A DNA stretch of 64,000 nucleotides from contig NZ_JAJTWU010000010.1 in assembly GCF_021353265.1 (NCBI RefSeq), positions 248,001-312,000 on the forward strand. The letters run 5' to 3'. Positions 1,166-17,336 of this stretch are shown one piece after another. How positions within the stretch are numbered: position 1 is the first letter of the stretch; the number at the start of each line of letters is the position of its first letter. Source of the DNA: Pelomonas cellulosilytica. Its GTDB lineage: Bacteria; Pseudomonadota; Gammaproteobacteria; Burkholderiales; Burkholderiaceae_C. The position numbers and the translations under genes were made by a program. Below the pieces are notes generated by a model that was not told where the DNA came from, made no database searches, and saw only the letters and a list, made by a program, of their open reading frames with translations.

Positions 1166-1679
1166 TGTTGGCGCGCAGCACGCGCTCGTTGGCCAGGCGC
1201 AGCCGCTCCGACGGCGACACGATGGCCTCGGTGAAGCCGGCCTCGTCGGTGTTGGCGATGCGCCGCTCGTAGACGGTGCGGCCGCTGGACTTGTCCACCA
1301 GCGCATAGCGCACGGCAGCCCCCACCGTGACGCCGGCCACCGGGATCAGCGGCTGGTCCAGCGGCAACAGCTGTGCCTGCAGCTCGAAGCGCGGTGCCGG
1401 CTCCGGCGCGGGCGGCTTCATGCCGACGGCGTAGAGCGACTCCTCCAGCGCCTGCTGCAGCGCCTCGGCACTGACCTGCGAGCCCCACCAGCGGCCCGTC
1501 ATCGCGCCGCCCTTCACGGGCGCCACGGCGACCTGGTGAAGTAGCGCCTCGGGCACCCAGCTGCGGATCTGCAGCGCATCCACCGGCGTGACGGTCATCG
1601 GCAGCGGCTGGCTGGGCGTGCCGCAGCCAGCCAGCGCGAGGGCCAGCAGCACGGCAGGAGCAAGGACGAGGCGGCGCAT
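1125..1679 (-). CDS. Predicted lipoprotein, family not recognised
   Basis: 184 residues. The N-terminus is a clear lipoprotein signal: basic MRRL, a hydrophobic stretch, then the lipobox LAGC with the lipidated Cys near residue 19. The mature part alternates short beta-type stretches and ends with a leucine-rich helix. I see no catalytic motif. It is likely anchored in the outer membrane or periplasm. It converges on the MFS gene with a 41-bp overlap. Its neighbour upstream on the same strand is a two-component system, but a 68-bp gap separates them and no operon is obvious. Function unknown. Confidence 0.75.
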   Translation of the reverse strand: MRRLVLAPAVLLALALAGCGTPSQPLPMTVTPVDALQIRSWVPEALLHQVAVAPVKGGAMTGRWWGSQVSAEALQQALEESLYAVGMKPPAPEPAPRFELQAQLLPLDQPLIPVAGVTVGAAVRYALVDKSSGRTVYERRIANTDEAGFTEAIVSPSERLRLANERVLRANINLLLRDLVTLRP

Positions 1680-1747
1680 GGGTCCCCCATGCTAGGTCGA
1701 ACGGTCGGGCCTGGCGACGCGAATAGCGCGACCGCGGCCGGGCTTCT

Positions 1748-3130: not shown

Positions 3131-3134
3131 CGCG

Positions 3135-3803
3135 TCAGCCTATTTCTTCGAGAAGGTAGCCCAGCCCACGCACAGTACGCAGCTGCACTCCGGCGGGCTC
3201 GATCTTGGCGCGCAGGCGCGACAGGCAGACCTCGATGGCGTTGTCGCTGACGCCCTGATCCCACGCATTGCTGGCCAGCGCGATGTGCTCCTTCGGCACC
3301 ACCTTGCCGGCCCGCGCCATCAGAAAGCCGAGCACGTCCCACTCGCGGGCCGACAACGCCAGTGGCTCGTCGTCGATGTAGGCACGACGGGCCTCCTGGT
3401 CGATACGCAGGCGCGCAAGCTGCAACTGGTTGCTTGTGCGGGCCTGGCTACGGCGCACCAGCGCGCGGGCACGGGCGACCAGCTCGGTCAGCGCGAAGGG
3501 CTTGACGAGGTAGTCGTCGGCACCGCCCTCCAGGCCGCGCACGCGGTCCTCGACGGCGTCGCGCGCCGTCAGGATCAGCGTGGGCACGGCTAGGCCCTCG
3601 GCGCGCACGCGGCGCAGCGTCTCGAAGCCATCGATGCCGGCGAGGCCGATGTCCAGGATGAGCAGGTCGTAGGCGTCCTCGCGCAGCGAACGCGGCACCG
3701 GTTCGCCGCGCGCTGTGCAATCCACGACCCACCCCTGCGACCGCAGGGCCCGGGCCGTGGTTTCCACCAATTGCTCGTCGTCTTCCACAAGGAGGATGCG
3801 CAT
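3135..3803 (-). CDS. OmpR-family response regulator
   Basis: 222 residues from the ATG at 3803; a longer frame to 3854 exists but adds residues not found in the family. The receiver domain shows the acidic pair EDD at 7-9, the phosphorylated Asp at 51 in LLILDIGLAG and the Lys in DYLVKPF near 101. The C-terminal winged helix (about 125-220) contains REWDVLGFLM and the recognition-helix region NAIEVCLSRLRAKI. It binds DNA as a dimer when phosphorylated by the kinase encoded just downstream. It is divergent from the hydrolase/ACP operon, which is a candidate target only by position. Confidence 0.93.
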   Translation of the reverse strand: MRILLVEDDEQLVETTARALRSQGWVVDCTARGEPVPRSLREDAYDLLILDIGLAGIDGFETLRRVRAEGLAVPTLILTARDAVEDRVRGLEGGADDYLVKPFALTELVARARALVRRSQARTSNQLQLARLRIDQEARRAYIDDEPLALSAREWDVLGFLMARAGKVVPKEHIALASNAWDQGVSDNAIEVCLSRLRAKIEPAGVQLRTVRGLGYLLEEIG

Positions 3804-3920
3804 GACCGACAGTATGGCGCGAGCACGCCGGAAGCGCTGACGAGGGCCTGTCACGCCGCGTCAGCTCGCGGCAAGGCTTGAGTCAAGCGTGTGACGGCCG
3901 GGGTTTCGACACTGCCGGCC

Positions 3921-4760
3921 ATGACTTCGTTGGATGCGCGCCGCCCGGCGGTACTGTTGTTTCACGGCCTGTGCGCCAACCCCCTTGAACTGGCTCCCGT
4001 GGCCAAATCACTGCGAGAGGCTGGCTATGTCGTCGAGACGCCGGCCATGGCCGGCTACGGCGTTAGCAGCAAGACGGGCGAGCAGTTGCCGGTGCCGCCG
4101 TTCGAGCATTGGCTGAACGAGGCCGAGGCGCTGTTCGACCGGCTCGCCGCCACGCATGGTCGCGTCGCCGTCGGCGGGCTGTGCATGGGCGCCGTGCTGG
4201 CGCTGGCGCTGGCGGCCCGCCGCCCCGCTGCGGCGCTGGTGCTGATCTCGACGACGCTGCATTTCGACGGCTGGAACGTCTCGCCCTGGCGCCGCCTGCT
4301 GCCGCTGGCCTACCTGCCGCCGCTACGCCGGCGCATGAGCTTCAAGGAGACAGCCCCCTTCGGACTGAAAAACGAGCGGCTGCGGGCCTGGGTCGAGCAG
4401 GCCATGGCGTCGGACCAGGTCTCTGCCGTCGGCGCCGCGCGGCTGTCGGCGGCGTCGCTGTACGAGGCCACGCGGCTGATCCGCCACGTGCGCGGCCGGC
4501 TCGGCGCTCTGAGCGCGCCGGCCATCGTGCTGCATGCGACGGAGGACGACGTGTCCGGCCCGCGCAGCGTGCACGAGCTGCAACAGCGCCTGGCCCAGGA
4601 GCCCGAAGTGCACTGGTTCCACGACAGCTATCACATGCTGACGCTCGACAACGAGCGCATCGCCGTCGCCCGCACCGTGCGCGACTTCCTGCTGCGGCGC
4701 TTGCCGCCGGCCCCATTCCGCCACCCGACTCCCGGAGCCCTTTATGAGCAACACGCTTGA
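3921..4760 (+). CDS. Alpha/beta hydrolase of an ACP/ketosynthase operon
   Basis: 279 residues from ATG 3921; a GTG at 3891 would add ten residues. The fold signatures are clear: LLFHGLCANPLEL (oxyanion region) and the nucleophile elbow GGLCMGAV, where the usual Ser is Cys (G-L-C-M-G). An acidic residue in HATEDDVSGP and the His of DSYHMLTLDNE complete a triad. A Cys nucleophile is unusual for this fold but occurs in dienelactone-hydrolase-like members. The last 17 bases overlap the acyl carrier protein gene, so the hydrolase is co-translated with it. It may release or proofread acyl chains from that carrier; the substrate is inferred from context only. Confidence 0.8.
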   Translation: MTSLDARRPAVLLFHGLCANPLELAPVAKSLREAGYVVETPAMAGYGVSSKTGEQLPVPPFEHWLNEAEALFDRLAATHGRVAVGGLCMGAVLALALAARRPAAALVLISTTLHFDGWNVSPWRRLLPLAYLPPLRRRMSFKETAPFGLKNERLRAWVEQAMASDQVSAVGAARLSAASLYEATRLIRHVRGRLGALSAPAIVLHATEDDVSGPRSVHELQQRLAQEPEVHWFHDSYHMLTLDNERIAVARTVRDFLLRRLPPAPFRHPTPGALYEQHA

Positions 4761-5001
4761 CCAACTCTGCACCATCGCCCAGCGCGAACTGGGCGCCGAG
4801 GCACTGAACGACAAGGTCGACACGCCCTTCGTCGAGCTGGGCCTCGACTCGCTGGGCCTCGTCGACTTCATGTTCACCGTGGAAGACCACTTCCACGTCA
4901 ACATCGAACACGACCGCGCGCTGCAGAACCCGACGCTGGCTGGCTTGGCCGCGCTGGTCGATGAACTGCTGGCCGCGAAAGCGGAGCCCGCGATCGCCTG
5001 A
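4744..5001 (+). CDS. Acyl carrier protein
   Basis: 85 residues, the usual ACP size. The phosphopantetheine attachment site is LGLDSLGLVDF with the modified Ser at 36. The protein is acidic with helices in ACP order. GGAG sits just before the ATG. It overlaps the hydrolase upstream by 17 bases and the ketosynthase downstream by one base (TGATG). It is therefore a dedicated carrier for a small pathway rather than the housekeeping AcpP, which normally sits with fabD/fabG/fabF. Confidence 0.92.
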   Translation: MSNTLDQLCTIAQRELGAEALNDKVDTPFVELGLDSLGLVDFMFTVEDHFHVNIEHDRALQNPTLAGLAALVDELLAAKAEPAIA

Positions 5002-6221
5002 TGACGCCCGTCTGGATCACGGGCCTCGGCGCGATCAGCGCGCTGGGCGCCGGCGCCGACACGCTGGCCGATGCGCTGCAGGCCGGCCGCTCGGGCATCA
5101 CGGCCCAGCCCGGCAGCGAGGCGCATGCCCTCAAGCCGTTCGCCGCGGGGGTCGTCACCGAGGCGCTGGCCGCCGGCATGCCGCCCGCACAGCGCAACCT
5201 GTACGACCGCCATGGCCTGCTGGCGCTGGAGGCGGCAGCCGAGGCCTGGGCGCAAGCCGGCCTGCCGGCCGCGGCGCCCGACCCGGAGCGCGCCGCCATC
5301 GCCTGGGGCACGGGCCTGGGCGGCTCGATCTCGATGGAGACGTCGTACACACAAATGTTCACGGCACGCCCGCCGCGCATCCACCCGTACACGGTCGTGC
5401 GCGTGATGGCCAACTCGGCGGCCTCGCACCTGGCGATGCGCCACCAGCTGCGCGCCGCACAGCTGGCCATCTCCAACGCCTGCGCCTCGTCGGCCCAGGC
5501 CATCGGCGAGGCGCTGTGGCTGCTGCGCAATGGCCGCGCGGACCTGGCCCTGGTGGGCGGCTCGGAGTCGATGCTGCATGTGGGCAGCGCGCTGGGCTGG
5601 CAAGCCATGGGCGTGATGGCGCCGCTGGACGCCGACGCACCCGCGCAGAGCTGCCGCCCGTTCGACGACGGCCGCAAGGGCCTGGTGCTCGGCGAAGGCG
5701 CGGCGGCGCTGGTGCTGGAGACTGAGGCACACGCCCGCGCCCGCGGCGCGACGCCGCTGGCGGTGCTGGCCGGCTACGGCCACAGCGTGGACGCGGTGCA
5801 CCTGTCGCGCCCCGACGCCGCCGGCCAGGCCCGCGCGATGACGGCCGCACTCCGTGACGCCGGCCTGGCAGCCGCCGACATCGGCTATGTCAACGCGCAT
5901 GGCACGGCCACCGAGGTGGGCGATGCGGTGGAAGCCGAGTCCATCGCTGCGGTGTTTGGCGAACGTGCCGTGGCCGTGTCCGCGACGAAAGCGCTGCACG
6001 GCCACCTGATCGGCGCTGGCGGCGCACTGGAACTGGTGGCCACCGTGCAGGCGCTTCGCCGCGGCCTGCTGCCGCCCAGCGCCCATGTGCGCAGCAGCGC
6101 GCTGGCCGCGCAGGTGGACCTCGTCACGGGCGAGGCCCGCCCGGCGGCTGCCCGCGCGGCGATGTCCAACTCCTTCGCCTTCGGCGGCAGCAACGTCGCG
6201 CTCGTCGTCCGCCTGACTTGA
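5001..6221 (+). CDS. Beta-ketoacyl-ACP synthase (FabF-like)
   Basis: 406 residues, a full-length KAS I/II type condensing enzyme. The catalytic triad is visible: Cys161 in ISNACASSAQ, His300 in VNAHGTATEVGD and His333 in ALHGHLIGAGG. The C-terminal SNSFAFGGSN glycine turn is present. It catalyses decarboxylative Claisen condensation on ACP-bound chains. It is translationally coupled to the preceding ACP. No ketoreductase, dehydratase or acyltransferase lies beside it, so the operon must borrow these from the fatty-acid pathway or serve a truncated pathway. Product unknown. Confidence 0.93.
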   Translation: MTPVWITGLGAISALGAGADTLADALQAGRSGITAQPGSEAHALKPFAAGVVTEALAAGMPPAQRNLYDRHGLLALEAAAEAWAQAGLPAAAPDPERAAIAWGTGLGGSISMETSYTQMFTARPPRIHPYTVVRVMANSAASHLAMRHQLRAAQLAISNACASSAQAIGEALWLLRNGRADLALVGGSESMLHVGSALGWQAMGVMAPLDADAPAQSCRPFDDGRKGLVLGEGAAALVLETEAHARARGATPLAVLAGYGHSVDAVHLSRPDAAGQARAMTAALRDAGLAAADIGYVNAHGTATEVGDAVEAESIAAVFGERAVAVSATKALHGHLIGAGGALELVATVQALRRGLLPPSAHVRSSALAAQVDLVTGEARPAAARAAMSNSFAFGGSNVALVVRLT

Positions 6222-6276
6222 GTCATGCGGCCGCAGGGCTGGCTATGCTGGCCGCTCCCCAACCGCCCGTGACGCC

Positions 6277-9018
6277 ATGCGACTCGCCCCACGCCTTGCC
6301 GCCCTGACGCTGCTGCTGCCGCTGCTGGCCGCCGCCGCGCCCGCCACGAACCCGCTCGCGCCAGTGCGCGAGGCCGAGGGCGTCAGCGAATACCGCCTCC
6401 CCAACGGCCTGCAGGTGCTGCTTATCCCCGATGCCAGCAAGCCCACGGTCACCGTCAACGTGACCTACCGCGTCGGCAGCCGCCACGAGGGCAGCGGCGA
6501 GACCGGCATGGCGCACCTGCTGGAGCACATGGTCTTCAAGACGTCGCGCCAGCACTCCAACATCGGAACCGAGCTGTCCAAGCGCGGCATGCAGTTCAAC
6601 GGCACGACCAGCGCCGACCGCACCAACTACTACGAGACCTTTCCGGCTGATCAGGCGCAGCTGAGCTGGGCGCTGGCGATGGAGGCCGACCGAATGACCG
6701 GCGCCAAGGTGCTGAAGAGCGACTTGGACACCGAGATGACCGTCGTGCGCAACGAGATGGAGGCCGGCGAGAACAACGCGCTGGGCATCCTCGTGCAGCG
6801 CACGCACGCCGCCGCATACCAGTGGCATGCCTACGGCCGCAGCACGATCGGCGCACGTGCCGACGTGGAAAACGTCGACATCCCGCGGCTGCAGGCCTTC
6901 TACAAGCGCTACTACCAGCCCGACAACGCGACGCTCACCGTTGCCGGCGCGTTCGACGCGCGCCGCACGCTGGCGGAGATCGGCCAACGGTTCGGCGCGA
7001 TCCCGAAGCCGGCACGCACGCTGTCGCCGACCTACACCGTGGAGCCGGTGCAGGAGGGTGAGCGCCTCGTGACGCTGCGCCGCATCAGCGCACAGCAGGG
7101 CGTGATCGCGAGCTATCACATCCCGGCGCTGGCCAGCCCCGACTATGCCGCCTTCGAGGTGGCCGTCACGGCGCTGTCCGACACGCCCAACGGCCGCCTG
7201 CACAAGCGCGCCGTCGAGCCGGGCATGGCGGCGCAGGCCTTCGGCTGGGCCGGCCGCAGCGCTGAGCCGGGCCTGCTGAACCTGGGCCTGGTGCTGAAGT
7301 CGGACAACGACGTGGACCGTGCTCAGCAGCTGCTCGTCGACACGGTGGAGGGCCTCGTCAAGGAGCCCATTACCGCCGAGGAGCTGCAACGCGCGCAGAC
7401 CCAGTGGGCCAAGAACTTCGACGAGCTGATGGCCAACCCTCAACAGCTGTGCGTGGAGCTGTCCGAGGCCATCGCCGCCGGCGACTGGCGGCTGCTGTTC
7501 CAGCTGCGCAACCGCGTCGAGGCAGCCACGGTGGATGGCGTCAACGCGACGCTGCGCCAATGGCTGCTGTCCAGCAACCGCACGCTCGGCCGGCTCTATG
7601 CCACGGCCCAGCCCGAGCGCACGCCGCTGGCGCTGCCCGTCGCCGCGGCGGACGCGCTGAAGGACTACAAGCCGAAGGCCGCCGTCGCCGCCGGGGAAAC
7701 CTTCGATACCAGCCCCACCAACATCGACCGCCGCACGCAGCGCTTCCAGCTGGCCAACGGCCTGCGCGTGGCGCTGCTGCCGAAGCGCTCGCGCGGCGAG
7801 ACCGTGGAGCTGGCGTTGAACCTGCACTACGGCACGCTGGACACGCTGCGCGGCCGGCGCACCGAGGCCGACGTCATCGGCGAGACGCTGATGCTGGGCA
7901 CGGGCCAGCACAGCCGCGCGCAGATCAGCGACCTGCTGGACCGCCTGAAGACGCGCGTGTCCGCGAACAGCGAGCCGACCGGCAGCGCCGTGCTGTCGCT
8001 GTCCAGCCACCGCCCGCAGCTGGGCGAGGCGCTTGCACTGCTCGCCGAGCTGTTGCGCGAGCCGAGCTTCCCGGCCGATGAGGTCGCGCAGTACGCGCGC
8101 CAGAAGATCGCCGGCGCCGAAGAAGCCCTGCAGCAGCCGCAGGCCGTCGCGTCGCACGCGCTTCGGCAGGCGCTCGCCGCGACCTACCCGGCCGACGACC
8201 CGCGCCACGTAGGCAGCATCGACGACGACATCGCCGCTCTGAAGGCCTTGACGCCACAGCAGCTGCTGGCCTTCCATCGCGAGTTCTGGAGCACGGCCCA
8301 TGGCGAGCTGGCGCTGGTGGGCGACTTCGACCCCGCCGAAGTCAAGCCGCTGCTGGAGCGCCTGTTCGGCAGCTGGACGGTGCCGCAGCCCTATGCGCGC
8401 GTGCCGCGCCCTCTGCCGGCCGTGCAGGGGCTGCGCATGAGCACGACGCTGAAGGACAAGGCCAATGCCATGGTGTCCGGACGCCTGCTGCTGCCGATCG
8501 ACGACGATCATGCGGACTACCCAGCGCTGCGCATCGCGACCCATGTGCTGGGCGCGAGCGGCTTCGACTCGCGGCTGCTGACGCGGCTGCGCCAAAAGGA
8601 AGGCATCTCCTACGGCGCGGGCGCCGGCCTCAGCGCGTCCAGCTTCGAACCCAATGCCCAGCTCGGCATGGGCGCGATCTTCGCACCCGAGGCCCGCGCC
8701 CGTGTGGAGGCGGCGTTGAACGACGAACTAGCCCGCCTGGTACGCGACGGCCTCACGCAAGCGGAGCTGGACACCGCCAAGCGCGCGATGAAGGCGGCCA
8801 GCGACACCTGGCGCAGCGATGACGCCGCCGTGGCCAGCGCCATCGCGGGGCAGCTGGAGCGCGGGCGGCAGTTCAAGTGGAACGCCGAGCTGGACGCCCG
8901 TGGCGAGGCGCTGACGCTGGCGCAAGTGAACGCCGCCATCAAGCGCTGGATCGACCCGGCCAAGGCCAACTGGTCGTGGGCCGGGGATTTCGACAAGGCG
9001 GCAGCCGCGGCGAAGTAA
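6277..9018 (+). CDS. Periplasmic M16 (pitrilysin-type) zinc peptidase
   Basis: 913 residues with a signal peptide (about 1-21). The inverted zinc motif HxxEH is HLLEH at 80-84, followed by the distal glutamate in VVRNEMEAGENN. The N-terminal half (about 35-450) is the catalytic M16 domain. The C-terminal half repeats the fold (about 485-900) without the zinc motif, as in pitrilysin-like fused M16 proteases. It is predicted to degrade peptides in the periplasm. It ends 36 bases from the end of the convergent M61 peptidase; a strong hairpin lies between them. Confidence 0.92.
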   Translation: MRLAPRLAALTLLLPLLAAAAPATNPLAPVREAEGVSEYRLPNGLQVLLIPDASKPTVTVNVTYRVGSRHEGSGETGMAHLLEHMVFKTSRQHSNIGTELSKRGMQFNGTTSADRTNYYETFPADQAQLSWALAMEADRMTGAKVLKSDLDTEMTVVRNEMEAGENNALGILVQRTHAAAYQWHAYGRSTIGARADVENVDIPRLQAFYKRYYQPDNATLTVAGAFDARRTLAEIGQRFGAIPKPARTLSPTYTVEPVQEGERLVTLRRISAQQGVIASYHIPALASPDYAAFEVAVTALSDTPNGRLHKRAVEPGMAAQAFGWAGRSAEPGLLNLGLVLKSDNDVDRAQQLLVDTVEGLVKEPITAEELQRAQTQWAKNFDELMANPQQLCVELSEAIAAGDWRLLFQLRNRVEAATVDGVNATLRQWLLSSNRTLGRLYATAQPERTPLALPVAAADALKDYKPKAAVAAGETFDTSPTNIDRRTQRFQLANGLRVALLPKRSRGETVELALNLHYGTLDTLRGRRTEADVIGETLMLGTGQHSRAQISDLLDRLKTRVSANSEPTGSAVLSLSSHRPQLGEALALLAELLREPSFPADEVAQYARQKIAGAEEALQQPQAVASHALRQALAATYPADDPRHVGSIDDDIAALKALTPQQLLAFHREFWSTAHGELALVGDFDPAEVKPLLERLFGSWTVPQPYARVPRPLPAVQGLRMSTTLKDKANAMVSGRLLLPIDDDHADYPALRIATHVLGASGFDSRLLTRLRQKEGISYGAGAGLSASSFEPNAQLGMGAIFAPEARARVEAALNDELARLVRDGLTQAELDTAKRAMKAASDTWRSDDAAVASAIAGQLERGRQFKWNAELDARGEALTLAQVNAAIKRWIDPAKANWSWAGDFDKAAAAAK

Positions 9019-9021
9019 ACA

Positions 9022-9046
9022 CGACGGCGGCGCGATGCCGCCGTCG
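9022..9046. other. Intergenic hairpin between convergent peptidase genes
   Basis: A perfect 10-bp GC-rich inverted repeat (9022-9031 with 9037-9046) with a 5-base loop lies between two convergent stop codons. There is no T-run on either side, so it is not a textbook Rho-independent terminator. It could stabilise both mRNA ends or slow polymerase. Confidence 0.6.
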
Positions 9047-9054
9047 CGGGTGCT

Positions 9055-10980
9055 TCAGGCGCGCGGCGCCATGATTTCACTAAGCCGGTCGGGCGTGCTG
9101 TCTACGCGCACCAGCTGCGGGTAGCGCAGCCCGCCGCGGTAGTCGACGCGCACGGTGCGGAAGTCGTCGCCTTCGCGCAGCAGCAGCGCCAGCGGCGCCT
9201 GACCGCCGATGTTGGCCGTGATGGCGTCGGCCAGCAGATCGGCGTCGTAGGCGCGGTCGTTGACCGCCACCAGCTTGCCCCCAGGCGCCAAGCCGGCGGC
9301 AAAGGCCGGGCTGTCCCACAGCACCTCCTTCAGCCGCCCGTCCTTGGCGATGCGCAGGCCGATGGAGAAGCTCAGGTCCTGGCCCTCCTGACGGCCCGGC
9401 CGGCCGGCGGCGAAACGGGCGAATTCGCTCTCGCGCTCGGTGTAGCCCAGCCGCCAGCCGCTGCGGGCCAGCCCGTCCAGCGGTGCGCCGGGGCCGTGCC
9501 CGTCCAGCCGCTCGCGCAGGAAGCCGCGCCAGTCGTGCGGCTGCACGGCGGTGAGTGCCGCCACCACGTCCTCGAAGGTGTAGGGCAGCGGCTCCATGCG
9601 CCCGTCCTGCACGCCGAAGAGGGCGCGCGCGGCATCGTCCAGCGAGCGCCGGCCGCCGCTGCGCTCGCGGATCAACGTGTCCACGTCCAGCCACAGCAGC
9701 GTGCACTCGGCGTAATAGTCCGCCGTGCGTTGCCAGCTCGGCCAGTCCTTGAAGCGGGCCGTGGCATAGAACAACGGCTCGGAGGTCGTGTCCTGCAGGC
9801 TGCGCCATGTCCGGCCGCGTCGCATCTCCAGCGTGGCGGCGTCGTAGGCCAGCGCGTCGCGGGCCTGCTCCAGCGTGCACAGGCCGCTGCGCGGCGTCAG
9901 CACATCGCCCCAGTAGGTCGTCATGCCTTCGTAGACCCACAGCAGGCTACCGCGCATGGGTTGCTCGTAGTTGCGGGTCAGCAAGTCGGCCGGGCGGCGG
10001 AACTTTCCGCACCAGGAGTGCGTGTACTCGTGCGGCAGCAGGCCGCGTGAGGCGACGCTCTTGTCCCAGTCCTTGAAGTAGCCGGTGCGCACGGCGTTCT
10101 CGCTGGACTCGTGGTGCTCCAGGCCGATCCCGCCGAAACGGTCGCTGACGGCTAGCAGGAAGTCGTAATGCCGGTAGTGGCGCGAGCCGTAGAGCCGATC
10201 GGCCTGCTGCACGAGCGCCCGGTGGGCGTCGAGCTGCGCGGGCGTCGCGGCGATGTCGGCCGGCGTATCGCCGAACAGGTGCAGCACGACGGGCCGCGCA
10301 GCGCCAGGCGGATCGAGCTCGACGCGCCGGTAGTGCGGGCCGGCGAACAGCGGCGAGTCGATCAGCCGCTCCAGCGAACAGGCGCCGAACTGCCACCAGC
10401 CCTGGGCATCGGCCTGGGCGAGCTGGCCATCGGGCGCCCGCAGCGCCGTGGCGGCCTGCCAGCCCGCAGGCAGGCGCAGACGCACGACCGTCTCGATGGC
10501 CGCTGCGGTATGGCCCTCGGGGTATAGCAGCAGGTTGTTCCACTCCAGCCCCAGCAACGCGGGCGTCATCGTGACGCGGTCCTGCTCCTCGCTTTGTGGG
10601 CTCAGGTGCTGCAAGCGCAGCCGCAACCGGTTCACGCCCGCCGGCACCTGTAGACGGAAGGCCAGCGCGTCGATGGTGTCGCGCTGCCAGCGCAGCGGCG
10701 CGCCGCTCTCCGATTCGATAGTTAGCCCGGCCAGCAGCGCTGGATTACCGTTCGGCCCATGCTCGCCGGGGAGCCACTGCGGCAGCCGCAGCGTCAGCGG
10801 CCCGGGTCGCACTGGCAGTGTCTGCACGACCTGCACGACACGGTGGGCCAGATCGGTGGCGTCCACTTCGAGTTCGAGGCGGCCCGGATAGGGGCGGCTC
10901 GACAGCGGCGCGCCAGGCTGGGCCCAGGCCGACAACGCAACGGCGCTCGGCAGCGCGAGCAGCAGACCACGACGACGCAT
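9055..10980 (-). CDS. M61-family metallopeptidase with PDZ domain
   Basis: About 641 residues from ATG 10980, where MRRRGLLLALPSAVALSAWAQ gives a signal peptide; an in-frame start at 11016 would add 12 residues. The middle holds the zinc-binding HEYTH motif (LLPHEYTHSW) and a downstream WVYEGMTTYWGD glutamate segment typical of glycyl-aminopeptidase-like M61 enzymes. The C-terminal 120 residues look like a PDZ domain (GLRIAKDGRL, APGGKLVAVN). It probably acts in the periplasm on small peptides. It runs convergent to the M16 peptidase; together they suggest peptide turnover. Confidence 0.9.
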   Translation of the reverse strand: MRRRGLLLALPSAVALSAWAQPGAPLSSRPYPGRLELEVDATDLAHRVVQVVQTLPVRPGPLTLRLPQWLPGEHGPNGNPALLAGLTIESESGAPLRWQRDTIDALAFRLQVPAGVNRLRLRLQHLSPQSEEQDRVTMTPALLGLEWNNLLLYPEGHTAAAIETVVRLRLPAGWQAATALRAPDGQLAQADAQGWWQFGACSLERLIDSPLFAGPHYRRVELDPPGAARPVVLHLFGDTPADIAATPAQLDAHRALVQQADRLYGSRHYRHYDFLLAVSDRFGGIGLEHHESSENAVRTGYFKDWDKSVASRGLLPHEYTHSWCGKFRRPADLLTRNYEQPMRGSLLWVYEGMTTYWGDVLTPRSGLCTLEQARDALAYDAATLEMRRGRTWRSLQDTTSEPLFYATARFKDWPSWQRTADYYAECTLLWLDVDTLIRERSGGRRSLDDAARALFGVQDGRMEPLPYTFEDVVAALTAVQPHDWRGFLRERLDGHGPGAPLDGLARSGWRLGYTERESEFARFAAGRPGRQEGQDLSFSIGLRIAKDGRLKEVLWDSPAFAAGLAPGGKLVAVNDRAYDADLLADAITANIGGQAPLALLLREGDDFRTVRVDYRGGLRYPQLVRVDSTPDRLSEIMAPRA

Positions 10981-12185: not shown

Positions 12186-12263
12186 GCCTCGTTAGCTCAG
12201 TGGAGTGAGAGCGCCGGTCTACGAAACCGTGGGTCGGACGTTCGAGTCGTCCACGCGGCACCA
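12186..12263 (+). tRNA. tRNA-Arg(ACG), atypical
   Basis: A full cloverleaf with encoded CCA (12261-12263). The D-stem is GCTC/GAGC and the T-arm GGACG/CGTCC has loop TTCGAGT. The anticodon loop CTACGAA places anticodon ACG at 12221-12223, which would be edited to ICG. Two mismatches stand out: U4-C69 in the acceptor stem and C27-U43 closing the anticodon stem. The D-loop is long at 10 bases. The anticodon loop matches a normal arginine tRNA while the helices are damaged. It is the first of the island's array. Confidence 0.85.
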
Positions 12264-12270
12264 CCACAAC

Positions 12271-12345
12271 GCCCCGTTGGACTTCCGGTGAGGTCCTCGG
12301 CCCTTCAAGCCGAAGAGGCGGGTTCGACTCCCGCACGGGGTACCA
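12271..12345 (+). tRNA. tRNA-Glu(UUC)-like, C33 variant
   Basis: The cloverleaf has CCA at 12343-12345. The acceptor GCCCCGT/ACGGGGT has a G1-U72 wobble; D-stem GACT/GGTC; anticodon stem TCGGC/GCCGA is perfect; T-arm GCGGG/CCCGC has loop TTCGACT; the variable loop is only four bases. The 7-base anticodon loop CCTTCAA gives UUC at 12304-12306, with C instead of the near-universal U33 at 12303. U33 makes the U-turn needed for normal decoding, so efficient translation by this tRNA is doubtful. Seven bases separate it from the previous gene. Confidence 0.75.
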
Positions 12346-12353
12346 ACACCGAT

Positions 12354-12429
12354 TGGTCATTGGCGCAACTGGCAGCGCAACGGTCTCCAAAACCGAAGGT
12401 TGCAGGTTCAAGTCCTGCATGGCCAGCCA
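12354..12429 (+). tRNA. tRNA-Trp(CCA), atypical
   Basis: Acceptor TGGTCAT/ATGGCCA (one U4-G69 wobble), discriminator G, CCA at 12427-12429. D-stem GCGC/GCGC. The anticodon loop CTCCAAA, as in ordinary tryptophan tRNAs, puts CCA at 12387-12389. T-arm GCAGG/CCTGC has loop TTCAAGT. The outer anticodon-stem pair is an A27-A43 mismatch. Otherwise it is the most normal member of the array. Confidence 0.85.
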
Positions 12430-12434
12430 CCCAA

Positions 12435-12468
12435 CGAAGCCCCTTGGCGAACTCACGCTTCGAGGGGC
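12435..12468 (+). other. Structured spacer with two competing hairpins
   Basis: GCCCCT (12439-12444) can pair with AGGGGC (12463-12468), while CGAAG (12435-12439) can pair with CTTCG (12458-12462). The two foldings exclude each other at their overlap. The spacer from 12430 to 12535 holds no gene; a second small hairpin and a T-rich run precede the next tRNA. Confidence 0.4.
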
Positions 12469-12535
12469 GCAAACCGGCCGCAACGATTGGGCGGCGTCGG
12501 AACCCGTCACCGACAACCCTTCTCATTTTTCTCAC

Positions 12536-12611
12536 GTCGCCATAGCTCAGCGGGGAGAGCGTCGGTCTGTCGAACCGGAGGTTGCGGGGTCGGAGCCCGC
12601 TGGCGGCGCCA
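12536..12611 (+). tRNA. tRNA-Asp(GUC), aberrant T-loop
   Basis: Acceptor GTCGCCA/TGGCGGC (U2-G71 wobble), discriminator G, CCA at 12609-12611. D-stem GCTC/GAGC; anticodon stem TCGGT/ACCGG with an outer U-G; anticodon GUC at 12569-12571. The T-stem GCGGG/CCCGC is perfect, but its loop is GTCGGAG: G replaces the conserved T54, and G stands where A58 is expected. That breaks the reverse-Hoogsteen pair that holds the tRNA elbow. Confidence 0.75.
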
Positions 12612-12633
12612 TCTTTCCATCCGTGTGCTTGGG

Positions 12634-12711
12634 GGTGGTCGTCGCCTAGAGGCCGAAGGCTCCAGGTCGTGACCCTGGCATCACCGGTTCGAATCCGGTC
12701 GACCACCCCCA
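12634..12711 (+). tRNA. tRNA-His(GUG)-like with hyper-extended acceptor helix
   Basis: Acceptor GTGGTCG (12635-12641) pairs with CGACCAC (12700-12706), and G-1 (12634) with C73 as histidine tRNAs require. D-stem GCCT/AGGC, anticodon stem CCAGG/CCTGG, T-arm ACCGG/CCGGT with normal loop TTCGAAT. The anticodon loop TCGTGAC gives GUG at 12669-12671, with C at position 33 (12668). The pairing continues outward for 12 more pairs, so 12623-12641 and 12700-12718 form a 19-bp helix (17 Watson-Crick, 2 G-U). The 3' tail reads CCCCA, one C more than expected, so the encoded CCA is displaced. Confidence 0.75.
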
Positions 12712-12742
12712 AGCGCATTCAACCAGCCACCCGGGAGCCATC

Positions 12743-12976
12743 ATGAAGAAGACCACCCGTCACAGCTTTCGAAACGATGAGCAAGCGCCGCAAGGGCTTC
12801 CCGTCTGAAACGCAGGTCAAGCGCGGCGACCGCGTCGTGCACGGCCACAAGGAATTGGTCGAGAAGCTCGGCCGTAACGACCCTTGCCCATGCGGCTCCG
12901 CGAGGTCGTTTCAAGCGCTGCTGCCTGCGCAGCGGCTGCTTTCGACGGCATGAACCGCGACCACTACCAGCGTTGA
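12743..12976 (+). pseudogene. SEC-C motif mini-protein gene needing three +1 shifts
   Basis: A GGGAG ribosome-binding site (12733-12737) precedes ATG 12743. Read straight, the frame stops at 12806. If one base is skipped at each of three UUU-C sites (12767-12770, 12909-12912, 12940-12943), a single 76-residue protein results, ending at TGA 12974-12976. It carries the zinc-binding SEC-C motif [10 protein letters not shown] followed by FKRCC, a C-x-C-x8-C-C pattern seen in SecA C-termini and many small RNA/protein-associated factors. The frames before and after every shift all encode sensible sequence, so the ancestral gene is certain. Whether the shifts are programmed, decay or sequencing errors is open. 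Confidence 0.7.
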
Positions 12977-13019
12977 CCGCCACCCTCAACCGTGCCCTGC
13001 CCAGAGAAAGGAGGCTCCG

Positions 13020-13580
13020 ATGCACGACGCTTTGCAGTTGGACATCACCGGCCTGCCGCAGGCCTGGATCTCGGTCGAGCAGGCCGCTACGCTCGTCGCC
13101 ACCGACGCCGTCGTGTGGTCGGCAGGCGAGCGTCCGCTCGCGGTGCTGCGTGGCGGCTTCAACGCCGCCACCGGCCGCCAGTCGATGCTGGAGGTTCCGG
13201 CCATCGTGGCGCTGGGCGGTTCTTCGAGGCTCAACCTCTTCGACCTCGCGCCGGTCTACGGCAAGGCCAAGGTCATCAAGCGTGACCGCTGCACCTGCGC
13301 CTACTGCGGCGTGGTGCACGATGCGCGCGTGCTGACCATCGACCACATCGTGCCGGCCAGCCGCGGCGGCCCGTTGAGCTGGATGAACACGGTCGCGGCC
13401 TGCCGTGCCTGCAATGCACGCAAGGCCGACCGCACGCCGGACGAGGCCCGCATGCCGCTGCTGTTCGCACCGTTCGTGCCGAGCCGCTTCGAGGACTTCA
13501 TCCTCAAGGGCCGCCACATCCGCACCGACGTGCACGAGTGGCTGGCCGCGCGCCTGCCGAAAGGATCCCGCCTCAACTGA
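13020..13580 (+). CDS. HNH endonuclease
   Basis: 186 residues with a strong AAAGGAGG ribosome-binding site. The C-terminal half is a treble-clef HNH domain: a zinc pair CAYC (about 98-101), the catalytic LTIDHIVPASRGG with the DH doublet, N in WMNTV, and a second pair CRAC with the downstream NARKADRTP. The N-terminal 85 residues form an unassigned alpha/beta part. HNH enzymes cut DNA or RNA with one metal ion. Placed inside an RNA-repair island, it may make or trim RNA ends, but its substrate cannot be read from sequence. Confidence 0.88.
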   Translation: MHDALQLDITGLPQAWISVEQAATLVATDAVVWSAGERPLAVLRGGFNAATGRQSMLEVPAIVALGGSSRLNLFDLAPVYGKAKVIKRDRCTCAYCGVVHDARVLTIDHIVPASRGGPLSWMNTVAACRACNARKADRTPDEARMPLLFAPFVPSRFEDFILKGRHIRTDVHEWLAARLPKGSRLN

Positions 13581-13645
13581 GGCGGCCACGAATCTGCCGA
13601 AGAAGGCAAAGGCCCACGGGCCGGGGTTCCCACGCCCCGCCGGTG

Positions 13646-13681
13646 CGCCGTGACCGGGCTTCATCGCTCGTTGCCACGGCG
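13646..13681 (+). other. Structured spacer, 7-bp stem after the HNH gene
   Basis: CGCCGTG (13646-13652) pairs perfectly with CACGGCG (13675-13681) around 22 bases. Other short GC hairpins lie at 13610-13640 and near 13693-13704. There is no T-run, so this is structured spacer or mRNA tail rather than a clear terminator. No gene was seen between 13581 and 13710. Confidence 0.4.
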
Positions 13682-13710
13682 TATGCCGCCCTGCCGGAAT
13701 CGGCTGATCT

Positions 13711-13764
13711 AGGAAATGCATGGTGCCCCGCAAGGGTTGGGTTCGATTCCCAACTTTCCTGCCA
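13711..13764 (+). ncRNA. 54-nt tRNA-like minihelix (acceptor plus T-arm)
   Basis: AGGAAA (13711-13716) pairs with TTTCCT (13755-13760). A perfect T-arm follows: TTGGG (13737-13741), canonical loop TTCGATT, CCCAA (13749-13753). It ends with discriminator G and CCA (13762-13764). Only 19 bases join acceptor and T-arm. They can make a 3-bp hairpin with a GCAA tetraloop but cannot form a D-arm or a proper anticodon arm. It would be seen by CCA- or T-arm-recognising enzymes but cannot decode. It may be a decayed tRNA or a purposeful tRNA mimic. Confidence 0.6.
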
Positions 13765-13838
13765 TTTGGATAGCTCAAACGGTAGAGCAACGAACTCGTA
13801 ATTCGTCTGTCGTGGGTTCGACTCCCACTCCAAAACCA
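13765..13838 (+). tRNA. tRNA-Thr(CGU) with 6-bp acceptor stem
   Basis: Starts on the base after the minihelix CCA. TTTGGA (13765-13770) pairs with TCCAAA (13829-13834), then A73 and CCA (13836-13838). Only six acceptor pairs fit; taking A13764 as base 1 gives an A-A mismatch and no discriminator. D-stem GCTC/GAGC, anticodon stem ACGAA/TTCGT perfect, loop CTCGTAA with anticodon CGU at 13797-13799, T-arm GTGGG/CCCAC with loop TTCGACT. All conserved loop bases are present, so only the acceptor is odd. Confidence 0.8.
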
Positions 13839-14075
13839 AACCGGTCGCAAGACCACTCCGCCGAACGTGCGCCCCGGCCCCGGCCGGATCGCGCATCAGC
13901 GGCCCGCGCTCGTGCGCCGGGCAAGCGGGGCTTCGCATCCACGGTCAGCCGAGAGCGTCTGCAGCGAGTAGGCGTTCGACGCGCGCCCTGGCTCCGGGCC
14001 CAGGCATCCGGCGTCCGCACGGGTCCCTGTAACGGCACCCTTTTCCAAACAAACACGCAACCCAAGGAGGATCCC
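13839..14075 (+). other. Untranslated leader of the slipin gene
   Basis: 237 bases without a convincing gene. It opens with a GCAA-tetraloop hairpin (GGTC 13843-13846 with GACC 13851-13854) and holds several GC-rich repeats. It ends with AAGGAGG at 14064-14070, the ribosome-binding site of the slipin gene. A longer in-frame start exists upstream, but it would make the tRNA-Thr gene coding and is rejected. Confidence 0.5.
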
Positions 14076-15221
14076 ATGAAGATCAAGCGTGTGACCGTGA
14101 AGAAGAACGAGCGCGGCCTGCTGCTGCGCAATGGCGATTTCGAGCGCGTGCTGCAACCGGGCACGCATTGGCTGTTCGCCGGCTTGGACGAGCTGAAGGT
14201 TGAACTCTTCAACCTCGGCGCACCGGCCTTCGTGCACCCGCTGACGGACTACCTGATGGCCCACGAGCCCGAGGTGGTGGACGCCGAGTTCACGCGCGTC
14301 GAGCTGGGCGAGCACCAGGTCGGCTTGCGCGCCGAGAACGGCGTGCTGGTCGAGCTGCTGCCGCCCGGCACGCGGCGCCTGTACTGGCGCGGCTTCGTCG
14401 ACGTGCAGGTCGAGGTGATCGACATCCGCGAGTCGGCCGAACTGCCGGCGGCCGCGGCTGCGCGCCTCGCGCAACCGCAGCTGCGCCCCCGCACCCTCAC
14501 CGGCCTGGCCGGCGTGCTGCAGGTCGAGGTGCCCGAACACGGTGCCGCGCTGCTGCGCGTGGACGGCAAGGTCGAGCGGCTGCTGGAACCCGGCGCGCAC
14601 GCGTTCTGGAAGTTCGGCCGCAACGTGGCCGTGGAGCTGGTGGACCTGCGACTGCAGGCGCTGGAGGTGACGGGCCAGGAAATCCTGACCCGGGACAAGG
14701 TCGCACTGCGGCTCAACCTCTCGGCGAACTGGCGTTATGCCAGCCCGGCGGACGTACTGCGCGCGTTCGAGCAACTGTCCAAGCCGGCTGACCACCTCTA
14801 CCGCGAGCTGCAGTTCGGCCTGCGCGCGGCGGTGGGCACCCGAACTCTGGACGAGTTGCTGGAGAACAAGTCGGTCATCGACGAGGTCGTGACGGCGCAT
14901 GTCGTGCCCAAGCTCGCCGGCTTCGGCCTGCAACTGGACGGCGTCGGCGTGAAGGACATCGTGCTTCCGGGCGAGATGAAGACCATCCTCGCCCAGGTGG
15001 TGGAGGCCGGCAAGGCGGCCGAAGCCAACGTGATCCGGCGCCGCGAGGAAACCGCGGCCACTCGCGCCCTGCTCAATACGGCCAAGGTGATGGAGGACAA
15101 CCCCGTCGCCCTGCGTCTGAAGGAGCTGGAAACGCTGGAACGCGTGGCCGAGCGCATCGACAAGATCTCCGTGTTCGGAGGTCTGGACCAGGTGCTCAAC
15201 GGGCTGGTGAAGCTGCGTTGA
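14076..15221 (+). CDS. Slipin / SPFH (band-7) family protein without membrane anchor
   Basis: 381 residues from ATG 14076. The C-terminal half (about 175-345) is an SPFH/band-7 domain: LTRDKVALRLNLSANWRYASP, the YRELQFGLRAAVGTRTLDELL helix and a coiled EAGKAAEANVIRRREE segment. The N-terminal part has three copies of one short unit, at about 10-35, 85-110 and 155-180, each with a GLL...PGTHxxW-like pattern. Slipins normally have a hydrophobic N-terminal hairpin; none is seen, so this may form a soluble ring or cage. RtcB neighbourhoods elsewhere also contain slipins, which supports a joint role. Confidence 0.88.
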   Translation: MKIKRVTVKKNERGLLLRNGDFERVLQPGTHWLFAGLDELKVELFNLGAPAFVHPLTDYLMAHEPEVVDAEFTRVELGEHQVGLRAENGVLVELLPPGTRRLYWRGFVDVQVEVIDIRESAELPAAAAARLAQPQLRPRTLTGLAGVLQVEVPEHGAALLRVDGKVERLLEPGAHAFWKFGRNVAVELVDLRLQALEVTGQEILTRDKVALRLNLSANWRYASPADVLRAFEQLSKPADHLYRELQFGLRAAVGTRTLDELLENKSVIDEVVTAHVVPKLAGFGLQLDGVGVKDIVLPGEMKTILAQVVEAGKAAEANVIRRREETAATRALLNTAKVMEDNPVALRLKELETLERVAERIDKISVFGGLDQVLNGLVKLR

Positions 15222-15272
15222 GTGCCGCCCTGCCGGCGTGGCCGGCAGGGCTTCATTTCCAAGGAGAGACCC

Positions 15273-16049
15273 ATGACGACGCCGGCTTTGAATGCGGCGG
15301 TCCGGCGCGCCTACGAGGTGTTCGGCGCCTACACGCCGCCCAAACACCCGCTGGACGTCTGCACGTCCTGCTGCATGGACGAAGAGCTCGAACGCGAGAT
15401 GCGGGCCGTTCCGCTGCGCCAGCTGAAGCGGCTGCATTTCTACGAGTACAGCACCGGCGCCAAGTCCGTCGACGGCCAGCCGGCCGACGAGGTGAAGTAC
15501 CTGCTCCCGCGTTTGCTGGAATTGCTGGCGAACGGCGAAGACACCCACCACTCGGTTGAGCTGACACTTGACCGCGTAGGCCGGTGCCCCACCGGCTCAT
15601 TCGATGCCGACGAACGCGCCGTTCTCAACGAGTTCATGCTGGCCTCATTCGACGCCTGCCTGCGCGGCGAGTGGACGGCTGATGGCATCTGGTACGACCT
15701 CGAAGACCCACTCGCACTGCTGGTGATGGCCGACTACGCCAGTCTCGCGCTGGAGCCCTTGCTGCAACACTGGGCTCAACACCCCAGCACGCACGCCACC
15801 GTACGCTTTGTCGAAAGCACCTACTGGGGTTTCTGGCCGAGCCACAAGATCACCAACGCCTTCGCGAGCGACCGACCACGGTTGCAGGCAATTTTCAAGG
15901 ACTGGATGCTGGCGCCCGGCACCAGGGCGGCCTTCACCCAAAGGCTGCTGCAACCTCAGTTTCTGGATCAGGTCGAACTGACAGCGTCCAACACCTGCGC
16001 ACCGTTCCCGGTGATGGTGGATGCGGTGTTCGATCACCTGACCTATTGA
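15273..16049 (+). CDS. Unrecognised protein between slipin and RtcB
   Basis: 258 residues from ATG 15273, which has AAGGAGAG before it; an earlier frame start lacks one. The N-terminus has a cysteine cluster, CTSCCMDEELERE (near 28-40). The rest is rich in aromatic residues (FVESTYWGFWPS) and predicted helices. No signal peptide or membrane segment. I do not recognise the family. It is 51 bases from the slipin stop and 14 from the RtcB ATG, so it is co-transcribed and likely part of the same response. Confidence 0.8.
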   Translation: MTTPALNAAVRRAYEVFGAYTPPKHPLDVCTSCCMDEELEREMRAVPLRQLKRLHFYEYSTGAKSVDGQPADEVKYLLPRLLELLANGEDTHHSVELTLDRVGRCPTGSFDADERAVLNEFMLASFDACLRGEWTADGIWYDLEDPLALLVMADYASLALEPLLQHWAQHPSTHATVRFVESTYWGFWPSHKITNAFASDRPRLQAIFKDWMLAPGTRAAFTQRLLQPQFLDQVELTASNTCAPFPVMVDAVFDHLTY

Positions 16050-16063
16050 AAGAAAGAACCACC

Positions 16064-17281
16064 ATGGAACCCCAACACATCCACGAAGACGTCCCCGGCG
16101 GCGTGCCGCTGAAGCTGTGGACGCAGGGCGTGCCCGTCGAAGACGCCGCCAGGCGCCAGCTGCAGAACGCGGCCCGCCTGCCTATCGTGTTCAAGCACAT
16201 CGCCGCGATGCCGGACGTGCACTTCGGCATTGGCGCCACCGTCGGCTCGGTCATCCCCACCGTCAAGGCCATCATCCCGGCCGCGGTCGGTGTGGACATC
16301 GGCTGCGGCATGATGGCCTGCAAGACGACGCTGGCTGCCGAAGACCTGCCCGACAACCTCGGCCCGCTGCGCGCGGCCATCGAGCGCGCCGTGCCGCACG
16401 GCCGCCAGCCGGGCAACCGCGACCCGGGCGCTTGGCAGAAGCCGCCCGGCTCGGTCAACACGGCATGGGCGCAGCTGGAGCCCGAGTTCACCGAGCTGTG
16501 CCGCAGCTACCCGAAGCTCGCCAAGACCAACCACATCCAGCATCTGGGCACGCTGGGTTCAGGCAACCACTTCATCGAGGTCTGCCTGGATGAGGCCGGC
16601 GCGGTCTGGTTCATGCTGCACTCGGGCTCGCGCGGCGTGGGCAACTTCATCGGCACGATGTTCATCGAGCTGGCCAAGCAGGACGCGCTACGCCACCAGG
16701 CGAATCTGCCGGACCGCGACCTGGCCTACTTCGAGGAAGGCAGCCGCTACTTCGGCGATTACGTACGCGCGGTCAGCTGGGCACAGAAGTTCGCGGCGCT
16801 GAACCGTGAACTGATGATGAAGCGCGTCATCGAGGCCGCGAAGACGGTCATCCGCAAGAACTTCCAGAGCCACATCGAGGCGGTGAACTGCCACCACAAC
16901 TATGTGCAGAAAGAAACGCACTTCGGCCAGGAGGTCTACTTGACCCGCAAGGGCGCGGTGAGTGCCAAGGCCGGCCAGCTGGGCATCATCCCGGGCAGCA
17001 TGGGCGCGCGCAGCTACATCGTGCGCGGCAAGGGCAACGCCGACAGCTTCGAGAGCTGCTCGCACGGCGCCGGCCGCGTGATGAGCCGCGGCGAAGCCAA
17101 GCGCCAGTTCACGCTGGCCGACCACCGGGCTGCGACCGAGGGCGTGGAGTGCCGCAAGGACAAGGACGTTATCGACGAAACGCCCGCCGCGTACAAGGAC
17201 ATCGACGCCGTCATGGCTGCGCAGCGCGAGCTGGTCGATGTGGTGCACTCGCTCAAGCAGGTGGTGTGCGTGAAGGGCTGA
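16064..17281 (+). CDS. rtcB: RNA-splicing ligase RtcB
   Basis: 405 residues from ATG 16064; a TTG at 16046 would add six. E. coli RtcB has 408. It joins RNA 2',3'-cyclic phosphate or 3'-phosphate ends to 5'-OH ends using GTP and Mn2+. All key residues are visible: Asp78 and Cys81 in GVDIGCGM, His169 in GSGNHFIEV, His186 in LHSGSRGVGN, and the guanylated His334 in SHGAGRVMSR. It closes the island, 14 bases after the unknown gene, and is followed by a strong terminator. No rtcA cyclase and no rtcR activator lie in the window. Confidence 0.97.
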   Translation: MEPQHIHEDVPGGVPLKLWTQGVPVEDAARRQLQNAARLPIVFKHIAAMPDVHFGIGATVGSVIPTVKAIIPAAVGVDIGCGMMACKTTLAAEDLPDNLGPLRAAIERAVPHGRQPGNRDPGAWQKPPGSVNTAWAQLEPEFTELCRSYPKLAKTNHIQHLGTLGSGNHFIEVCLDEAGAVWFMLHSGSRGVGNFIGTMFIELAKQDALRHQANLPDRDLAYFEEGSRYFGDYVRAVSWAQKFAALNRELMMKRVIEAAKTVIRKNFQSHIEAVNCHHNYVQKETHFGQEVYLTRKGAVSAKAGQLGIIPGSMGARSYIVRGKGNADSFESCSHGAGRVMSRGEAKRQFTLADHRAATEGVECRKDKDVIDETPAAYKDIDAVMAAQRELVDVVHSLKQVVCVKG

Positions 17282-17304
17282 TGGTGCGTGCCGCACCGCT
17301 GCAG

Positions 17305-17336
17305 GGCGTCTGACCTCGGTCAGGCGCCTTTTTTTT
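17305..17336 (+). terminator. Rho-independent terminator after rtcB
   Basis: GGCGTCTGACC pairs with GGTCAGGCGCC (one T-G pair, tight loop), followed by eight T residues. It lies 23 bases after the rtcB stop and marks the end of the island. Confidence 0.9.

Follow-up and report, generated by a model that had tools for sequence, protein, structure and literature searches.

The 64,000-nucleotide stretch analysed here (Pelomonas cellulosilytica, contig NZ_JAJTWU010000010.1, positions 248,001 to 312,000; hereafter the window, whose numbering is used throughout) contains an island on the positive strand in which a tRNA array, a gene for an array-type HNH protein, a tandem tRNA-like leader RNA, a slipin gene and the RNA ligase gene rtcB are, judged by comparison with related genomes, kept together. 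This island is reasonably probably a module that responds when tRNAs are damaged and translation stalls, a mechanism inferred from sequence. Between the array and the HNH gene lies a serially FRAMESHIFTED SEC-C gene, the open reading frame (ORF) of which breaks in the middle of the zinc motif. A sequence-only reading of the region had described a tRNA array, SEC-C gene, HNH gene, minihelix, slipin gene, rtcB and terminator on one strand, an arrangement borne out by ARAGORN, Rfam, Pfam and RNA folding.

ARAGORN identified six tRNA-type genes in the window, all on the positive strand between positions 12186 and 13837. The array (12186 to 12711; ARAGORN and Rfam scans) consists of five genes, each with an encoded CCA end: Arg-ACG (12186 to 12263), Glu-TTC (12271 to 12345), Trp-CCA (12354 to 12429), Asp-GTC (12536 to 12611) and His-GTG (12634 to 12711). 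Five tRNA genes are thereby found in 526 bases, with the sixth 1.05 kb further and none elsewhere in the 64 kb. The covariance-model scan that had been proposed for the region placed five of the six above the Rfam tRNA threshold in the window, the Arg gene reaching it in the whole-genome scan. Downstream, the same strand encodes an array-type HNH protein of 186 amino acids (13020 to 13580; Pfam HNH_5, 1.3e-13), a slipin of the SPFH/Band 7 family of 381 amino acids (14076 to 15221; PF01145, 8.7e-29) and RtcB (16064 to 17281; PF01139, 1.1e-127). The RtcB domain is full-length (positions 1 to 426 of 426) and is the single RtcB match in the whole genome; by this domain the protein is an RNA ligase, predicted to join 2′,3′-cyclic phosphate to 5′-OH ends.

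Related loci were collected with a slipin search of genome contigs, from which the best 80 of 506 relatives were kept (1.40 Mb); the closest slipin relatives of the window are those of Roseateles and Pelomonas (Burkholderiales). These loci contain 221 tRNAs by ARAGORN, 217 of them on the slipin strand and within 7 kb upstream of slipin. In 31 of the 80 loci (32 with the window) at least one array tRNA is separated from the downstream slipin by more than 500 nt; in one of these, L083, it is a lone Gly gene. Array size reaches 19 tRNAs, the order of which is broadly conserved, and the HNH gene is present in 24 of the 31 array-bearing loci. The proposed test of whether other genomes keep tRNA-type genes beside rtcB and slipin is answered by dozens of loci that do so, with the proviso, common to all counts given here, that related genomes are not independent trials.

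Linkage was then assessed in an even sample of 299 genomes of the family; these hold 26 slipin orthologues, the window's own genome included. The HNH search returned 36 places at 241 bits or more, and the remaining ones among the matches listed, at 198 bits or less, represent a near-ubiquitous paralogue. Fragments mostly of about 18 kb, three array fragments being shorter than 10 kb, were examined around every high-scoring place except the window itself (35 in all) and around 12 paralogue places. RtcB was found in 22 of the 35 array-type HNH fragments (one only 34% identical and one partial) and in none of the 12 paralogue fragments, and at least one tRNA was found in 31 of 35 and 2 of 12 fragments, respectively, the latter with one Met tRNA each. 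Some array loci are slipin-free (L136, L137, L139, L141, L144 and L146) and carry Ro60 and RtcA, while L149 has slipin together with Ro60, RtcR and RtcA; the Ro60, RtcR and RtcA genes beside arrays were confirmed with Pfam on representatives, and the Y RNA YrlA was detected with Rfam in five of eight loci scanned. Because slipin-free array loci carry Ro60 and RtcA, gene content indicates that arrays are attached to two kinds of RtcB operon, one with slipin and tRNA-like RNA and one of the RtcR-Ro60-Y RNA-RtcBA type. What tRNA arrays do in bacteria is a matter of debate, and this tie to two RtcB operon kinds points to recovery from tRNA damage. As the sequence-only reading had remarked, the partners of the second type are missing here, with no match to RtcR (PF06956), RtcA (PF01137) or TROVE/Ro60 (PF05731) in the whole genome and no YrlA in an Rfam scan of the 64-kb window, yet related arrays adjoin exactly those genes. 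A GOLLD RNA was also observed at L136 (12366 to 12835), where an array of some 28 tRNAs encloses it and a Ro60-RtcBA operon lies nearby.

It is possible, although unlikely, that the array and its HNH gene are instead a mobile tRNA cluster of phage or plasmid origin, inserted near rtcB by chance or to further its own spread and without a functional tie to repair. Plasmids of Methylibium, Variovorax, Acidiphilium, Mycobacterium and Nostoc carry tRNA arrays that are likewise marked by this HNH family (81 plasmid records matched, with arrays in 6 of the 11 fetched), and a viral contig carries an array together with a SEC-C homologue. In mycobacterial tRNA arrays, an endonuclease, often of the HNH type, was the most widespread coding sequence (PMC5966550). 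Against such a cluster, gene order and strand of the loci are retained across many genera, RtcB lies near 22 of 35 array-type HNH genes and none of 12 paralogues, and arrays are joined to two operon types and in one plasmid case contain an RNA ligase (PF09414). A search for the slipin in phages returned no match. The plasmid fragments hold further genes of note: the PF09414 ligase, of another type than RtcB, is encoded at 4653 to 5714 of L122 (Variovorax sp. RA8 plasmid 3) inside a 23-tRNA array, and a release-factor-like gene with an RF-1 domain, at 10811 to 11329 of L123 (Variovorax sp. SRS16 plasmid 2), shares its fragment with 27 tRNAs and an HNH relative.

The window array is redundant, because the 51 tRNA genes of the genome that remain without the window genes cover all 20 amino acids, and it is a reduced copy of the longer arrays of its relatives. 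In 184 comparisons of array tRNAs with own-genome tRNAs of the same anticodon, the acceptor stems have diverged to 53% identity, the stems are paired at 97-99%, and the discriminator base agrees with the isotype in 157 cases (compared with 43% between unlike housekeeping tRNAs); CCA is encoded in 165 of 188 array tRNAs. The anticodon loops are altered in part, with C33 in 27 of 188 array tRNAs and in none of the 51 housekeeping tRNAs, and the Gly-GCC array tRNAs of 11 out of 11 loci have the common anticodon loop ACGCCAT, in which C33 replaces the near-universal U33. Phage tRNAs reportedly evade tRNA-cutting defences through altered anticodon loops (PMC10264068). These features suggest that the array tRNAs are a spare set with altered anticodon loops, functional rather than bait, with a predicted use in translation. 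The array had been considered as substrate, spare or bait, and of these the spare fits better than the bait because stems are paired, CCA is encoded and discriminators match the isotype, as for charging and translation. A role of the array and the leader tRNA-like RNA as baits that soak up tRNA-cleaving enzymes, to which the free anticodons of the leaders and the C33 substitutions would lend themselves, is accordingly improbable.

The sixth tRNA-type gene, called tRNA-Thr-CGT (13764 to 13837), was taken for a tRNA-Thr in the sequence-only reading, an assignment that does not hold. It belongs to a family of tRNA-like leader RNAs (the 'S' element), starts 312 nt upstream of slipin and differs from an ordinary tRNA in that the family is mostly without an encoded CCA (3 of 35 elements end in CCA) and has a free anticodon, while the D-arm pairs are invariant and the T arm is conserved. 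Covariation is extensive, with both-sided changes in 13 of 20 pairs, including all five anticodon-stem pairs. A covariance model (R1), which scores array tRNAs too, was trained on 26 of the 80 slipin loci. As counted by eye from its output table, 77 of the 80 loci, whether of the RtcR or the array type, have the leader at a distance of 280-470 nt on the upstream side of slipin; the exceptions are L069 and two loci truncated at contig ends. The window leader scores 90.7 bits, its own copy being among the training sequences. Directly 5′ of the leader lies a tRNA-like minihelix (13711 to 13764) with an acceptor stem, a short hairpin, a T arm and a CCA end, which folds at -14.7 kcal/mol. A T-arm-like minihelix precedes the leader in 69 of 74 anchored rows (28 of 30 array/HNH, 33 of 36 RtcR and 8 of 8 other loci), a count that has no chance control and leaves out 7 of 81 rows with no recognisable S anchor. 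The same leader, with anticodon ACG, is also found at an RtcR-slipin-RtcB locus of Pseudomonas aeruginosa PA7 (L080).

Of particular interest is the SEC-C mini-gene (12743 to 12976), which ordinary ORF finding does not show as one gene. The sequence-only reading had listed it as a mini-gene and missed the serial frameshifts; the gene has three putative +1 frameshift sites, each TTT-C, at 12767-12770 (site 1), 12909-12912 (site 2) and 12940-12943 (site 3), and when TTTC is read as one step three times a protein of 76 amino acids results, from the ATG at 12743 to the TGA at 12974-12976. This read-through protein matches the SEC-C domain PF02810 over 19 of 19 positions (36.4 bits), with the complete CxC...CC zinc motif formed after shift 2, whereas the version of a relative (L008) without shift 2 covers 9 of 19 positions (22.1 bits). 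With the unshifted core as query, 31 distinct cores were recovered from the collected loci. Site 2 is TTT-CAA or TTT-CAG in all 31, and TTT TAA, a stop, in two further orthologues from a class-wide sample; an AGG, possibly a Shine-Dalgarno-like stimulator, stands two codons 5′ of it in 12 of the 31 cores and AAG in six. At site 1, 28 of 31 cores have a TTT-C/T from which the core frame is entered, all 28 with an upstream in-frame ATG, and the codon that follows is CGA in 13, CAC in nine, TGA in two and another in four; this search was limited to 24 nt, with TTTC lying further up in L230 and L232 and L192 being degenerate. At site 3 (30 cores, L192 dropped) a shift is needed in 24, at TTT TGA, TTT CGA or, in L019, CTT TGA C, and the remaining six continue in frame into a similar DG..R..Y tail. 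In the programmed +1 frameshift of prfB the ribosome slips while a slow codon or a stop occupies the A site, and the sites described here likewise combine a slip codon able to re-pair one base on (TTT-C/T) with a putative slow codon or a stop; the CTT TGA C of L019 corresponds to the prfB site.

Purifying selection follows the shifted frames after sites 1, 2 and 3: in the proposed frames, the ratio of nonsynonymous to synonymous polymorphism (pN/pS) is 0.28, 0.45 and 0.35 for segments 2, 3 and 4, compared with 0.88-2.05 in the other frames. Phe codons within the unshifted core are TTC in 26 cases and TTT in three; across long window ORFs, TTT makes up 7.7% of Phe codons. The existence of the peptide downstream of site 2 is best supported, on sequence grounds, by a phage homologue in a predicted viral contig with 21 tRNAs, in which site 2, and only site 2, is in frame and is read through in one frame; this homologue retains TTT CGA at site 1, preceded by AGGAGG and by an ATG in the other frame, and TTT TGA at site 3. 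The contig itself (L241; IMG/VR IMGVR_UViG_3300020195_000410, 1437 to 9878) has tRNAs of Leu, Ser, Phe and Tyr types only and carries, besides the SEC-C homologue, an EF-Tu-like ORF of 398 amino acids named by eye. One copy, at 8001 to 8135 of L192 on a Candidatus Manganitrophus plasmid (Nitrospirota), is degenerate with TTT-CAA kept, and lies beside an integrase and a SIR2 gene.

That the mini-gene is a pseudogene or an assembly artefact, its frameshifts being inherited damage, is highly improbable: the L192 copy is plainly degenerate, with an in-frame TGA, and the segment before site 1 shows no clear coding selection, but 31 distinct cores exist, selection acts in the frames after the sites, TTT is found at the sites and TTC in the core, and in-frame versions occur both at site 3 with a similar tail and at site 2 in the phage relative. 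There is equally little to commend constitutive decoding of UUUC as a four-base codon by a dedicated array tRNA, an idea suggested by the three TTTC sites of the window and the adjoining tRNA array, given that sites also take the forms TTT-T (TTT TGA, TTT TAA) and CTT TGA C, that L030 has an unshifted in-frame TTT CCG and that the window array has no Phe tRNA. To our knowledge, conserved +1 frameshifts that follow one another two or three times within one gene have not been described in bacteria. A search of open-licence PMC literature, covering titles and the openings of abstracts, returned neither a serially frameshifted SEC-C gene nor a tRNA array beside RtcB.

In the response module proposed here, tRNA cleavage or starvation of the A site would call on RtcB to reseal tRNA ends, with slipin and the tRNA-like RNA as a scaffold, and the array would supply a second set of tRNAs after damage. 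A ribosome waiting on the codon or stop that follows UUU would allow the P-site Phe-tRNA to slip forward to UUC or UUU, such that the complete zinc-binding SEC-C protein would be made mainly under such stress and would report it. SEC-C motifs are known from the ribosome-binding proteins SecA and YecA, and for this reason the SEC-C protein may be expected to act on stressed ribosomes or on the control of the module. In the array clade the SEC-C gene would stand where relatives have RtcR, a sensor of broken tRNA. We advance, as a tentative proposal only, that the SEC-C gene is a translational AND gate, its protein being made solely upon +1 slips at two or three UUU sites in succession and thereby reporting tRNA depletion straight from the ribosome, and that it works with RtcB repair and replaces RtcR as sensor in the array clade, the array being the recovery stock. 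If this is true, the SEC-C gene would provide a naturally occurring reporter for slipping ribosomes or tRNA starvation.

A number of observations weigh against these proposals. RtcB is not in the fragment for 13 of the 35 array-HNH loci, 5 of the 11 fetched plasmid HNH relatives have no tRNA array, and the window array, with five tRNAs only, may be decaying. Site 1 is the least sure of the three sites: the segment before it has a pN/pS of 1.06 over 28 loci, which shows no clear coding selection, and 0.70 in the 12 MKP-type loci, where another frame gives 0.64; in 5 of the 31 cores, the window included (ATG at 12777), a core-frame ATG could bypass the site. The neighbours of the SEC-C gene are also mixed. 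Orthologues, defined by an E-value of at most 1.3e-13 (the next match, at 1.4e-11, lies inside a 725-amino acid open frame), occur in 10 other genomes among 399 sampled from the order, with RtcB in the fragment in 8 of 10, and a class-wide sample of 369 genomes yields three, with RtcB in 2 of 3 and one only 30% identical. SEC-C stands beside RtcB without an array in L224 (which has a lone Arg tRNA), L227 and L228, and stands without rtcB in the fragment in L230, L231 and L245. Among array-HNH fragments it is present in only 11 of 35, and among slipin loci in only 12 of 80, counts from which short or cut copies are missed; the fragments of Roseateles saccharophilus (L005) and Pelomonas (L007) yielded no SEC-C gene. 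Given the RtcB frequencies, the three array-free loci and the 11 of 35 array-HNH fragments, the SEC-C gene seems, from its neighbourhoods, to be more closely associated with RtcB than with the array.

The relation to RtcR is clade-structured. Of the slipin loci, 68 offer 2.5 kb or more of upstream sequence (the other 12 were left out of the count); among these, RtcR is found in 2 of 28 with array or HNH (L030, and L083 with its lone Gly tRNA) compared with 39 of 40 without either. In the slipin tree, however, nearly all array loci fall in one clade, with L027 and L057 in addition, so the split between RtcR and array can be traced to roughly one or two events, or at most a few, in evolution; a single full locus (L030/L149) carries both. 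An interpretation of this exclusivity as repeated replacement was rejected, the tree showing mainly one array clade.

The remaining parts of the island are a gene between slipin and rtcB and a terminator-like site. The 258-amino acid protein encoded at 15273 to 16049 on the positive strand has no Pfam match, and its AlphaFold model, which is helical with a mean pLDDT of 82, has no significant fold match in the Protein Data Bank (PDB); its family, which adjoins rtcB in both slipin and Ro60 loci, has an invariant C-x2-CC motif in nine aligned members. An intrinsic-terminator-like hairpin with a T run follows rtcB (17303 to 17336, positive strand; 12-pair stem, loop of 4), although as a class terminator-like sites are not enriched there (6 found, 3.9 expected). 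No sigma-70-like promoter site was found within the island, and the single transcription unit is therefore only putative.

Several known systems share parts of this arrangement. The SEC-C gene would have the +1 slip in common with prfB; it differs in that two to three sites follow one another within 76 codons and that UUU occupies the P site at almost all of them. Burroughs and Aravind reportedly described, in 2016, SPFH modules with a novel tRNA-like RNA and RtcB repair, and the leader RNA of the slipin loci is probably that tRNA-like RNA. Slipin, leader RNA and RtcB form one unit in those systems as in the window; the window adds the tRNA array, the array-type HNH gene and the serially frameshifted SEC-C gene, and RtcR and RtcA are absent. 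The RtcR-controlled rsr-Y RNA-rtcBA operon of Salmonella has the RtcB ligase in common with the window and differs in its other components, RtcR, RtcA and TROVE being absent from the window genome and YrlA from the window (PMC7790460). In relatives of the window, arrays lie directly beside RtcR, Ro60, YrlA and RtcA, genes of the rsr-Y RNA-rtcBA type.

Mycobacterial and plasmid array units resemble the window in their dense tRNA genes and HNH gene, and a mycobacterial plasmid HNH protein matches that of the window and is accompanied by an array. The window array is tied to RNA repair, whereas a term search of the text of the mycobacterial study returned no mention of RtcB or repair (PMC5966550). 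A further counterpart is the trn operon and TrcR regulon of Anabaena, where translational stress relieves one repressor and a 26-tRNA array, rtcB, slipin and HNH genes are switched on (PMC10272220). The gene set of tRNA array, rtcB, slipin and HNH is that of the window, however in Anabaena it is distributed over several separate loci, with the array on a megaplasmid, and in the window it forms one island. With regard to the earlier suggestion that the island produces or repairs tRNA under attack, the conserved gene set and this co-regulation under translational stress speak in its favour, and it is the bait role of the array that is not upheld by the paired stems and isotype-matched discriminators. 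By analogy, the Anabaena co-regulation is the closest experimental support for a stress module of the kind predicted here.

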